Positions 16,774 to 19,928 of a stretch of DNA of 21,894 nt are shown one piece after another. The stretch is from a virus, in the IMG/VR virus record IMGVR_UViG_3300005607_000062, positions 1 through 21,894 of that record. One strand, 5' to 3'. The position numbers and the translations under genes are program-made. The notes beneath the pieces are model-generated. The model searched no databases, was not told the DNA's origin, and saw only the letters and a program-made list of their open reading frames with translations. Position 1 is the stretch's first letter. Every line of letters starts with the position of its first letter.

Positions 16774-17175
16774 TTACGCTCCCAAAAGCCTCGCTACCTC
16801 GCCCATCGCATCCCTGATCGCACCCGCCAATTCGACATACGCGAATACCGGAGGGGGGACCTTCGCCGTCTTCCCAGAACACCAATTGCTCACCAGCGAC
16901 GGCCGAACCCCTAAACGCCGAGCCAACTCGGCCTGAGACCAGCCCAAATCGATCAATTTCGCCCGCAATTCCTGCGCCGAAATGCCCCGGCGAACCCGCT
17001 TCGACGCAATTTCTTCGGGATTGTCGAATGTCCGGGGGCCGGAAATGTTCATTTCGGGAATCCGGTTTTCTCTGGGAAATGCGGGGGTGTGGGGCGCCCG
17101 AACGCCGATCGCCCGGGCCATCGAGGCCGCGGCGCCGCTCGCCTGGCTCGCCAACTCCGCCCGATCCATCACCAT
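16774..17175 (-). CDS. XRE/HTH_3-type transcriptional regulator
   Basis: A 133-residue protein with an N-terminal low-complexity part and a helix-turn-helix at about residues 69-102 (LRAKLIDLGWSQAELARRLG then VRPSLVSNWCSGKTAKVPPP). The pattern SQAELARRLGV...SLVSNW is typical of lambda-repressor-like domains. The C-terminal helix (AYVELAGAIRDAMGEVARLL) may form a dimer. A longer frame starts at a GTG (17205), but I choose the ATG at 17173-17175 because GGAGAG precedes it at fair distance and because a perfect palindrome at 17199-17212 covers the GTG, which fits an operator. It probably represses its own operon. It has no peptidase domain, so it is not a LexA/CI-type cleavable repressor. It may be a Cro- or antitoxin-like regulator. 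Confidence 0.8.
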   Translation of the reverse strand: MVMDRAELASQASGAAASMARAIGVRAPHTPAFPRENRIPEMNISGPRTFDNPEEIASKRVRRGISAQELRAKLIDLGWSQAELARRLGVRPSLVSNWCSGKTAKVPPPVFAYVELAGAIRDAMGEVARLLGA

Positions 17176-17198
17176 AGCACCCCGACTCTCCGCCAGTC

Positions 17199-17212
17199 GT
17201 TTCACTTGAAAC
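17199..17212. promoter_or_regulatory. Palindromic operator upstream of the XRE gene
   Basis: GTTTCACTTGAAAC is a perfect inverted repeat (6-2-6), 24 bases upstream of the chosen ATG. Size and symmetry fit a binding site for a dimer of XRE-type proteins. A further half-site GTTTCA lies at 17258-17263. A possible -10 element (CATAGT on the minus strand) abuts the upstream side, so binding would block transcription. This is sequence-based inference. Confidence 0.65.
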
Positions 17213-17900: not shown

Positions 17901-17938
17901 TCGAGTGGGCAGCCTCGAGGCTGCAGCGCGAACGGCAT
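17897..17938 (-). CDS. 13-codon leader ORF coupled to the zinc-finger gene
   Basis: The ORF encodes MPFALQPRGCPLE. It has a good ribosome site (AGGGAG, six bases before the ATG at 17936-17938), whereas the downstream 174-residue gene has none at normal distance. Its TGA overlaps that gene's ATG (ATGA), so ribosomes finishing the leader could restart on the next gene. A perfect 16-base palindrome lies inside the ORF. This looks like a translational coupling leader rather than a functional peptide, though no conservation test was possible. Confidence 0.5.
   Translation of the reverse strand: MPFALQPRGCPLE
17909..17924. repeat. 16-bp perfect palindrome inside the leader ORF
   Basis: GCAGCCTCGAGGCTGC is fully self-complementary. 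In the minus-strand RNA it would form a GC-rich hairpin ending 9 bases before the ATG of the zinc-finger gene and would hide the only GAGG near that start. Translation of the leader would melt it. It may equally be a protein binding site. Confidence 0.6.
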
Positions 17939-17950
17939 GACGTGCTCCCT

Positions 17951-17966
17951 ACCGGCCTGCGCCGGT
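17951..17966. repeat. Short GC hairpin after the GcrA-tail gene
   Basis: ACCGGC and GCCGGT enclose a CTGC loop. On the minus strand it begins 7 bases after the TGA of the 65-residue gene. No T-run follows in that direction, so termination there is doubtful. It may stabilise or partly attenuate the message before the AGGGAG ribosome site of the leader ORF. Confidence 0.4.
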
Positions 17967-17973
17967 CAGTTTA

Positions 17974-18171
17974 TCATGAAATCGGCTCGGTGACACGGGA
18001 TTTTGTGAGCGAATGCCGAACGACTCTGGGCGATTGTGACGAGATCGGCCGGTAGCAGATTCGAAGATGATCGTCACAATAGCTGAGCAGTGGATGCCCG
18101 ACGCCCGCGCCGCAATACCGATGATCGGGCTTGGCTTTGTCGGGCCAAAGCGGGAATCGGCAGCCTTTCAT
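17974..18171 (-). CDS. Stand-alone GcrA C-terminal-domain-like protein
   Basis: A 65-residue protein that begins MKGCRFPLWPDKAKPDHRYC and continues with GAGVGHPLLSYCDDHLRICY. The order C4-R-F-P-L, F/Y-C20-G-A, Y-C32-x2-H35, followed by a Tyr-Arg-Pro, matches the C-terminal Cys/His motif of GcrA (usually CxWPxGdP...FCG...YCxxHxxxAYxP). In Caulobacter GcrA the C-terminal part binds domain 2 of the housekeeping sigma factor, while the N-terminal helix-turn-helix reads DNA and is sensitive to GANTC methylation. Here the DNA-binding half is absent. The upstream 150 bases encode no such domain in any minus frame I checked. A weak GGGGTGG ribosome site precedes the ATG. I infer a sigma-factor-binding mini-protein. 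Confidence 0.75.
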   Translation of the reverse strand: MKGCRFPLWPDKAKPDHRYCGAGVGHPLLSYCDDHLRICYRPISSQSPRVVRHSLTKSRVTEPIS

Positions 18172-18234
18172 GACACCACCCCACGCTGCCGGGTTTCACG
18201 TGCGAGAAAGCAATAAAATTGCGCAGATTTCCGC

Positions 18235-18269
18235 TTGCGCTCTTGTCCTAACTTCCCTATATTTAGGAC
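18235..18269 (+). promoter_or_regulatory. Promoter overlapped by an inverted-repeat operator for the plus-strand operon
   Basis: TTGCGC (18235-18240) and TATATT (18258-18263) are 17 bases apart, a good sigma-70-type arrangement. GTCCTAA (18245-18251) and TTAGGAC (18263-18269) form a perfect 7-base inverted repeat with 11 bases between, spanning the spacer, the end of the -10 box and the likely start site. A dimer bound here would block transcription. The half-site centres are 18 bases apart. The operon it controls ends in a helix-turn-helix protein, the natural candidate to bind it. The gene starts at 18321 behind an AAGGAG site. Confidence 0.7.
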
Positions 18270-18320
18270 GTGGCAAGGGCGATGGCGCCCGGCCGCGGAA
18301 GGGCAAGGAGGCCCGCCACG

Positions 18321-18746
18321 ATGACCAAATACCACCTCAAGTACTGGGCGAAGCGTTCGGGCAGCACCAGCAACCCGCTGATCCCGGCCCTCTCGATCAG
18401 TCGCGTCTACGTCAACGCCGATGACGGCTCGACGCTCGGCTATGTCGAGCGCCGGATACAAGAAGGCGAGCGCTCCGGCCGCTCCTCCTATGACCGCCAC
18501 CGCGCGGCCAAGGGCGATACCACGGTCACGCAGTCGGATGTGATCACCTCGACGCTGCCCGAGGGCGTGCTGGAGAAGATCCTCGCCGGCATCGTCGCCT
18601 TCAGCCCCGATTACGCCGAGGCGATGAGGGGCGACATGGACCGCTGGCTGGCCCTCCAGGGCCACGCTCGCGGCGTCAACTGGATCGCGTCGGGTGCACA
18701 AAAGCGCCGGCTGACCCGCCAGGCGCGCTTTGAAATCGAGCTGTGA
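18321..18746 (+). CDS. Hypothetical protein, first gene of the plus-strand operon, 141 aa
   Basis: I start at the ATG at 18321 because AAGGAG (18305-18310) is correctly placed. An upstream GTG-type start would add an Arg-rich stretch that lies over the promoter leader. The protein begins MTKYHLKYWAKRSGSTSNPL and has RVYVNADDGSTLGYVERRIQ and later LEKILAGIVAFSPDYAEAMR. It looks soluble and mixed alpha/beta, with a basic end. I recognise no family. As the first gene behind a regulated promoter, in an operon of small unknown proteins ending with a helix-turn-helix protein, it could be an early host-takeover or anti-defence factor, but there is no motif evidence. Confidence 0.72.
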   Translation: MTKYHLKYWAKRSGSTSNPLIPALSISRVYVNADDGSTLGYVERRIQEGERSGRSSYDRHRAAKGDTTVTQSDVITSTLPEGVLEKILAGIVAFSPDYAEAMRGDMDRWLALQGHARGVNWIASGAQKRRLTRQARFEIEL

Positions 18747-18758
18747 GGAGCGCAACCC

Positions 18759-19145
18759 ATGACCACCTACACCGTCTATCGCCACGCCTCTGATTTCGTC
18801 GAAGGCAGCGGGCTCACCGCCGAGCAGGCGGCCGAGATCATTCTGAGCCATGACGGCGCGCGCTGGGAGCTGCGCCGCGAGCCGGCGCGCTGGGATATCG
18901 CCGGCGTACCCTGCTGGCAGGTCTACGGCCCTCCTCCCGGCGGCCGTGGCGAGTGGGTGCCGTACTATGACGGGCCGCCGCCCCATGGACGCGCGCTCGA
19001 GGCTTGCGCGCCGACCGAGGCGGAGGCGTGGGCCAAGATCGCGCCGATGGTATTGACCGCTGATTGGCGCGGCCCGTTTACGGTTATGACCGACGCCGAT
19101 TTCGACGCGATGATGGCCGAGCTCGCGGCCGAGCGGGAGGACTGA
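18759..19145 (+). CDS. Hypothetical protein, second gene of the plus-strand operon, 128 aa
   Basis: An acidic protein beginning MTTYTVYRHASDFVEGSGLT, with AEQAAEIILSHDGARWELRR near the N-terminus, a Pro/Gly-rich middle (WQVYGPPPGGRGEWVPYYDG) and an acidic helical end (DADFDAMMAELAAERED). GAGGAG lies 8 bases before the ATG. The gap to the previous stop is 12 bases. The aromatic residues and acid-rich surface would fit a protein-binding or DNA-mimic-like role, but this is only a compositional remark. No known family is recognised. Confidence 0.7.
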   Translation: MTTYTVYRHASDFVEGSGLTAEQAAEIILSHDGARWELRREPARWDIAGVPCWQVYGPPPGGRGEWVPYYDGPPPHGRALEACAPTEAEAWAKIAPMVLTADWRGPFTVMTDADFDAMMAELAAERED

Positions 19146-19148
19146 GGG

Positions 19149-19577
19149 GTGCGCGACCAACAGCTTGGCCGCTTTCTCCAGCGCGTCGCCGCGGAACACG
19201 ACGGCGAGATGCCGCGCCGCGTGATGATCGCGCGGCACTCGCCGCAATCGCTGGCGCGCTTTCATCCGCTCGCCAGCTACGCCGAATGGGAGCGGCGCTA
19301 CCGGGAGGTGGTGGCAGATCTGCGCGCCGCTGACGTGCCGATGACCGAGATCGACGCCGACGCGGCGCCGGCGAGCATCACCACCAGCCAGCAGCTCGCC
19401 AGTTGGTGCGAGCGGCAGCGGGGCGACGGTGCTAGGCCGCCCTATCGCCTCGGCATCAAATGGGCCACAGGGAGCAAGGCACCCTTCGGCAAGCTGGGTT
19501 TCGCCGGCACGAGCCAGAGCCAGATCGGCTGGTGTATTACGGGCCTGCGCTCTTTCGAGAGTGGCGAGGAGCGCTGA
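19149..19577 (+). CDS. Hypothetical protein, third gene of the plus-strand operon, 142 aa
   Basis: The start is a GTG at 19149-19151, supported by GGGAGG eight bases upstream and only 3 bases after the previous stop. An internal ATG at 19209 has no comparable site. The protein begins MRDQQLGRFLQRVAAEHDGE and has RFHPLASYAEWERRYREVVA and a Ser/Gly-rich C-terminal part (KAPFGKLGFAGTSQSQIGWC). It is mixed alpha/beta and mildly basic, without membrane segments. No family is recognised. Confidence 0.68.
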   Translation: MRDQQLGRFLQRVAAEHDGEMPRRVMIARHSPQSLARFHPLASYAEWERRYREVVADLRAADVPMTEIDADAAPASITTSQQLASWCERQRGDGARPPYRLGIKWATGSKAPFGKLGFAGTSQSQIGWCITGLRSFESGEER

Positions 19578-19580
19578 TCG

Positions 19581-19928
19581 ATGACGCGCGACGAACTCCG
19601 CCACATCGGCGCGGCGCTGTACGGCTACGGCTGGCAGCGCCGCCTTGCCGGCGAATGGGGTGTCAACGAGCGCACGATGCGGCGATGGGTAGCCGAGCCC
19701 GAGCGGCTGCCGCCTGACCGCGAGACATGGCTCCGCGAGGCTTACGCGGCCAGCGCCAACCGGATCGGCGATCTCGGCGCCACGGTGCTGCGCGTGCCGA
19801 GCCGCGATGAATTGCCGAATCTCGTCGTCCGCGTCGTTCGGCTGTGGGCCGAGATCCACGAGGCCGATCGGCCGCTGGCGCTGGAGCTCGCGGCGAAGCT
19901 GCCGACAATGGCGATACGGCGAGGCTAG
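19581..19928 (+). CDS. Helix-turn-helix regulator at the end of the plus-strand operon
   Basis: A 115-residue protein with a helix-turn-helix at about residues 14-45 (YGYGWQRRLAGEWGVNERTM then RRWVAEPERLPPD). The pattern GWQRRLAxxWGVxxRTxRRW is common in small phage regulators, and the WVAEPERLPP stretch resembles the wing of Aca2-type proteins as I recall them. The C-terminal half is helical (VVRVVRLWAEIHEADRPLAL) and may dimerise. GAGGAG lies nine bases before the ATG. It is the last gene of the operon and ends 17 bases before the convergent DUF1376 gene. It likely autoregulates through the inverted repeat at 18245-18269. The binding claim is inference. Confidence 0.72.
   Translation: MTRDELRHIGAALYGYGWQRRLAGEWGVNERTMRRWVAEPERLPPDRETWLREAYAASANRIGDLGATVLRVPSRDELPNLVVRVVRLWAEIHEADRPLALELAAKLPTMAIRRG

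Follow-up and report, generated by a model that had tools for sequence, protein, structure and literature searches.

A stand-alone GcrA SID encoded by a viral genome, and the recurrence of SID-only genes in other phages and one bacterial family

The window, the whole stretch of 21,894 nucleotides analysed here, carries on its minus strand a 65-aa ORF that holds a GcrA sigma-interacting domain (SID) by itself (Table 1). The translation of 17974-18171(-) is MKGCRFPLWPDKAKPDHRYCGAGVGHPLLSYCDDHLRICYRPISSQSPRVVRHSLTKSRVTEPIS, in which CRFPLW, RYCGA, YCDDH and CYRP follow one another in that order. Coordinates and sequence thus confirm the sequence-only reading, which had described a 65-residue ORF with these four motifs arranged as in the C-terminus of GcrA. 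The ATG is preceded by a Shine-Dalgarno-like element, and the 8 codons between the SID ATG and the upstream in-frame TGA include no start.

The SID gene is divergent from four plus-strand genes, and an operator-like inverted repeat lies in the intergenic region. The four plus-strand genes (18318-19928) have almost no family matches and run convergently with the replication genes; the last of them, 19581-19928(+), gives a weak HTH-type match. Past the SID gene, the order on the minus strand is the 174-aa gene, an HTH gene at 16774-17205(-) (HTH_3, E 8e-9), a muramidase-type endolysin, terminase, portal and capsid. Two GC-rich hairpins separate the SID gene from the 174-aa gene, and the region that contains them (17909-17966) has a fold z-score of only -1.7. 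An Rfam scan of the window found nothing, and a promoter scan found no consensus promoter. The argument for an early control region is therefore weak: the gene is divergent from the plus-strand genes, but it heads a leftward lysis/terminase/portal/capsid arm, and its position is no proof of early expression.

Table 1. Features of the SID locus and members of the related bacterial gene family
Feature	Position	Strand	Remark
Stand-alone GcrA SID ORF, 65 aa	17974..18171	-	ATG 18171-18169
SID core, residues 3-44	18040..18165	-	confident fold prediction and gene-like codon usage
C-terminal tail, residues 45-65	17977..18039	-	low predicted order; codon usage not gene-like
C4 codon, first of four invariant Cys/His	18160..18162	-	69-SID alignment
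C20 codon, second invariant Cys	18112..18114	-	69-SID alignment
C32 codon, third invariant Cys	18076..18078	-	69-SID alignment
H35 codon, invariant His	18067..18069	-	69-SID alignment
Shine-Dalgarno-like GGGGTGG	18176..18182	-	4 nt 5' of ATG, read from sequence
In-frame TGA closing the frame upstream	18196..18198	-	NPAAWGGV alone between TGA and ATG
Perfect inverted repeat GTCCTAA-11-TTAGGAC, operator-like	18245..18269	.	divergent intergenic region
First gene of divergent plus-strand cluster	18321..18746	+	no family match
Hairpin ACCGGC-GCAG-GCCGGT	17951..17966	-	just past SID stop, no T-run
Hairpin GCAGCC-TCGA-GGCTGC	17909..17924	-	just before next gene, no T-run
Next same-strand gene, 174 aa	17376..17900	-	weak zinc-ribbon-like C-x2-C motif
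~63-aa bacterial family members	L264:1459-1650; L268, L270, L269, L261, L330-L339	- (L264)	

The ORF almost certainly encodes a GcrA-family domain. Its residues 3-46 match positions 110-151 of the 155 positions of Pfam GcrA (PF07750) with an E value of 4.1e-6 and 27.7 bits, which exceeds the curated cut-off of 26.9 bits when the ORF is searched as a protein; in whole-genome mode the score is 21.8 bits, below the cut-off. The likeness to the GcrA C-terminus proposed from the motifs is thus borne out by a significant match to the C-terminal end of the profile. With a profile of the SIDs of 120 viral loci, the window ORF scored 36.7 bits, against 14.9 bits for the best of 5000 shuffles of the same residues, and a chance resemblance was therefore rejected. 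A second profile, of 69 related SIDs, recovered the GcrA SID crystallised with sigma (5YIX chain B, E 4.5e-19) and GcrA in the RNAP complexes 7YE1/7YE2 (E 1.6e-18). In an alignment of 69 SIDs drawn from viral contigs, bacterial genomes and isolated phages, six residues are invariant, and all of them (C4, P7, C20, Y31, C32 and H35) occur in the window protein; judging from the alignment, the four invariant Cys/His (C-C-C-H) are probably zinc ligands. The NCBIfam equivalog NF050816, which describes full-length GcrA, scored 15.9 bits against a threshold of 280, aligning at profile positions 115-168 of 173 only. Foldseek of the window protein against the PDB returned zero matches, a result probably due to the very small size and irregular structure of the domain. 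Among predicted viral structures (BFVD), the best matches were several entries named GcrA cell cycle regulator and a 71-aa protein (E 6.9e-3, probability 1.00); the search points to phage proteins of 71-77 aa, one of which, the weak match A0A6J5LHS5 (E 0.19), bears the GcrA name. The identity of the encoded domain as a GcrA SID is near certain.

The core of the ORF is gene-like in its codon usage. Over residues 1-44 this usage falls inside the range of the genome's real genes, at their 8th percentile, and beats 99% of off-frame controls, and the AF2 model has a pLDDT of 91-95 for residues 1-40. The tail, RVVRHSLTKSRVTEPIS, has a pLDDT of about 65, and its 21 codons (residues 45-65) look non-coding. 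Neither tblastn of the single sequence against phages and plasmids nor a scan of viral contigs found close relatives of the window protein. A 100% match of seven residues in L002 and L003 was rejected as an antisense coincidence inside another gene; these two loci, which are helicase relatives, carry no GcrA. The non-coding-like tail codons and the absence of a close relative make it possible that a formerly longer gene is decaying.

GcrA ties DNA methylation to the alphaproteobacterial cell cycle, and a flexible linker joins its two domains. GcrA proper reads methylated GANTC DNA through an N-terminal HTH, whereas the window protein has none, either in frame or in the 1 kb upstream. A GcrA DNA-binding-domain profile, run over all frames, found no match in the kilobase that precedes the SID ORF, and the in-frame stretch before the ATG (8 codons, then TGA) encodes no DNA-binding half. 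Across the 21,894-base record, which the window covers in full, which IMG/VR classes as linear and which is therefore probably a genome fragment, Pfam GcrA matched the SID ORF only; a full-length GcrA may lie on the part of the genome beyond the record. With the Pfam match above its cut-off and no DNA-binding half within 1 kb upstream, the description of the protein as a GcrA C-terminal domain lacking its HTH holds.

The main rival to a functional SID protein is that an ancestral full-length phage GcrA has lost its N-terminal half through a deletion, and that the surviving SID keeps a chance ATG and may be functionless. The ATG stands three residues ahead of the first Cys and the linker is absent, as would be expected of such a remnant, and the state of the tail codons points the same way. 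In contrast, every invariant position is intact, as are G3, W9 and H17, which are characteristic of the subtype described below; the core is free of stops and frameshifts, and the GGGGTGG element is well positioned. Moreover, the DNA-binding domain has left no trace in the upstream 1 kb, which is taken up by the divergent gene. Considering these points together with the conservation of SID-only genes elsewhere, we judge decay unlikely.

Relatives in viruses were sought with a degenerate nucleotide pattern that encodes C-[RF/RW]-P ... [FY]-C-G ... Y-C-x2-H, which at least 120 viral loci match. Among the 120 listed, 110 have at least 350 nt of upstream sequence, and a locus was called SID-only when no more than 60 residues of the ORF preceded the SID. 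By this definition, 6 of the 110 viral loci among the matches listed (~5%) are SID-only (L032, L035, L039, L047, L055 and L118), while most viral GcrA relatives among these matches are full length. SID-only is a minority architecture among phage GcrA relatives. The genes of L035, L039 and L055 look like intact operon members, because their starts overlap the preceding gene in ATGA-type junctions. L032, L035, L039 and L055 resemble the window protein in having the SID alone and differ from it in keeping an L-x-x-L segment. L118 may be a degenerate SID gene: it shares the 'M-x-G-C' start of the window protein and its motif is gone beyond the histidine, a combination that speaks for the remnant reading of the window gene. 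In L070, 73 residues without a recognisable DNA-binding domain precede the SID.

The same domain is found in the GcrA homologues of alphaproteobacterial phages such as phiCbK (gp222), Agrobacterium phage Atu_ph08 (gp5) and Brevundimonas phage Bajun. Unlike the window protein, the GcrAs of isolated phages (these three, CcrRogue, DMCA, RHph_X2_24, RHph_Y1_10, 7-7-1, OLIVR4, Pam5 and others) are 145-235 aa long, and nearly all of those examined have an N-terminal HTH. No SID-only gene was found in isolated phages, where tblastn with other SIDs gave full-length GcrAs alone. Further arrangements were observed among phage GcrA relatives. Phaeobacter phage MD18 (L016:1001-1375) encodes a 124-aa protein whose residues 1-45 share 71% identity with the GcrA DNA-binding domain and which has no SID, and in L320-L322 and L026 one SID is preceded by two DNA-binding domains or by extra winged-helix-like domains. 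GcrA-type genes lie immediately 3' of a DUF2312 (GapR-like) gene in L035:2727-3235 and in Agrobacterium phage 7-7-1 (L345:902-1677); in L035, the SID-only gene overlaps what reads from its sequence as the DUF2312 gene.

SID-only genes also occur in bacteria. The window protein was searched against 385 genomes belonging to the class of one alphaproteobacterial MAG, and the top matches included frames of 66 and 93 aa that hold a SID alone. The proteins encoded there form a ~63-aa family (for example, MLDIRPRRGCLWPLWPHGDHPSHEYCGEVRSDGSSYCEEHKAKSIRDLEVEPRQPFIPRRKAA) that in alignment is 33-36% identical to the window protein, with G-C, P, W, P-x-H, Y-C-G, S-Y-C, H and R in common. Like the window protein, the family is a stand-alone SID with G-C-x-[WF]-P-x-W, H-x-Y-C-G and S-Y-C-x2-H; it differs in its conserved C-terminus of the FIPRRKAA type and in the 5-7 residues that stand ahead of the GC. 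The gene is present in 14 of the 15 genomes of one alphaproteobacterial family (a family-rank group), and 13 of these 14 also encode a separate, longer GcrA that comprises both halves. Three members compared in pairs gave dN/dS values of 0.03-0.04; the gene is under strong purifying selection. Its presence in 14 of 15 genomes and the low dN/dS indicate that a SID can be conserved and functional as a protein of its own, with no DNA-binding half, which argues against a remnant at the window locus. Judged from translations only, the neighbours of the ~63-aa gene read as metabolic (CoA ligase, acyl-CoA dehydrogenase, pyrophosphatase) and not as phage genes. The gene scores near the Pfam cut-off, and annotation would often miss it. 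A second, unrelated bacterial SID-only gene, whose 73-aa product is a SID of the classical type, lies beside a cytochrome P450-like ORF at L306:1447-1665(+). The sequence-only reading had proposed a survey of phages for the same short form, which is found there and on bacterial chromosomes too; the SID-only architecture is real and recurs in other phages and in one bacterial family.

The window SID belongs to a PLW subtype that differs from classical SIDs by a one-residue insertion (CRFPLWP) and by loss of the L-x-x-L before the first Cys; the subtype residues are the G3, W9 and H17 mentioned above. The nearest viral SIDs of this subtype are those of full-length GcrAs (L124, L321 and L324-L329), which is also what a remnant would show. 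In a FastTree analysis of 151 SIDs, the window SID clustered with the ~63-aa bacterial family and the PLW-type SIDs of the full-length phage GcrAs L324, L325 and L329 (support 0.88), and L124, L131 and the SID-only phage protein L032 were next out. This grouping is only suggestive, because the alignment has fewer than 60 columns. The tree is compatible with an origin of the window form in the bacterial small gene as well as in a phage GcrA that was truncated. The departure of the PLW subtype from classical SIDs could also be taken to mean that the fold has been reused, as a small zinc-finger-like protein aimed at another host or phage protein and no longer at sigma-70. The subtype is, however, shared by full-length GcrAs that have a DNA-binding domain and in which sigma contact is expected, and such reuse is highly improbable.

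The host is probably an alphaproteobacterium of the CcrM/GcrA type. GANTC is the CcrM methylation site, and the host assignment follows from the depletion of GANTC in the window (62 observed versus ~116 expected) and its near absence from two of the nearest terminase relatives, L140 (17.1 kb; 0 versus 61 expected) and L142 (12.4 kb; 3 versus 43). In L004, a more distant relative from a spring, GANTC is not depleted. The portal and capsid proteins of the nearest terminase relatives are 40-60% identical to those of the window, and the SID is absent from them; none of about 85 terminase relatives among viral and bacterial contigs carries one. This absence of the gene from relatives would fit a decaying copy.

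In GcrA, residues 108-173 form the SID and bind sigma region 2, residues 1-45 bind DNA, and an unstructured linker lies between them (PMC7403470). Because the SID is separate from the DNA-binding residues and joined to them through such a linker, it should be able to act alone. Lacking the DNA-reading half, it should either block GcrA from the enzyme or stimulate the polymerase in the manner of Crl. We favor the former, although we rate it slightly below an even chance: the phage SID would occupy GcrA's site on the host sigma and act as a decoy. The sequence-only reading had likewise proposed a decoy, one that could compete with GcrA or divert RNA polymerase to phage promoters; it is one of several options. 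The small, probably zinc-stabilised module would dock on the host's housekeeping sigma factor at region 2, in the place of GcrA and without contacting DNA. With that site on the holoenzyme occupied, the host GcrA could not bring the polymerase to GANTC-methylated promoters during infection. We infer sigma binding from homology; the expression of the protein, its zinc, its competition with GcrA and the consequence for the host are inferences too.

A DNA-independent activator resembling Crl is quite unlikely by our estimate. By analogy, the SID would stabilise sigma region 2 and increase open complex formation, perhaps favouring phage promoters. The contacts of Crl, RbpA and GcrA on sigma overlap, and the same stabilising mechanism has been proposed for them (PMC7403470); Crl stabilises without touching DNA (PMC6917491), and the fact that the bacterial family has kept a SID-only gene beside GcrA speaks for a positive role in the cell more than for a simple inhibitor. 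However, GcrA is reported to require contact with methylated DNA for activation, and Crl is not homologous to the SID. Alternatively, the SID might recruit sigma while a separate phage DNA-binding protein selects promoters. The window does encode separate HTH proteins, at 16774-17205(-) and 19581-19928(+), and phage MD18 has the converse, a GcrA DNA-binding domain without the SID. Nevertheless, no fusion of either HTH protein to a SID was seen and neither HTH gene is adjacent to the SID gene, and we consider such a split activator improbable.

The proposed decoy can be compared with several known systems. The SID of Caulobacter crescentus GcrA (PF07750; 5YIX, 7YE1, 7YE2) is homologous to the window protein and shares C-x2-P ... 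C-G ... Y-C-x2-H with it; in contrast to that 173-aa protein, the 65-aa window protein lacks the DNA-binding half, the linker and the L-x-x-L and has the PLW insertion. Crl of gammaproteobacteria binds sigma region 2 independently of DNA, the same working mode as proposed for the window SID, but it is non-homologous, larger and directed at sigma-S. T4 AsiA and P23-45 gp39 are small phage proteins that act on the host sigma, as proposed here; they bind region 4 and have no homology to the SID, which would bind region 2. The sigma-repressors tabulated in a review likewise target region 4 (PMC7403470). Full-length GcrA homologues were already known in phages, and an action on the cell cycle of the host has been proposed for them (PMC3556154, PMC6630229). 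The structure of the SID with sigma and short public phage proteins called GcrA are also already known. No description of SID-only proteins was found in the literature searched, the key GcrA structure papers lying outside that search.

More broadly, SID-only proteins could form a distinct class of miniproteins that dock on sigma region 2, serving as permanent partner or antagonist of GcrA in some alphaproteobacteria and captured or reinvented by phages, in which they would uncouple host transcription from CcrM methylation. We advance this idea, with the window protein as a phage member of the class, tentatively and on the doubtful side of possible. A natural sigma-gripping half alone would separate the effects of sigma docking from those of DNA reading, and the bacterial family with a SID-only gene beside GcrA is a genetically tractable, phage-free test system. 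A SID-only phage protein would be a phage handle on sigma region 2.
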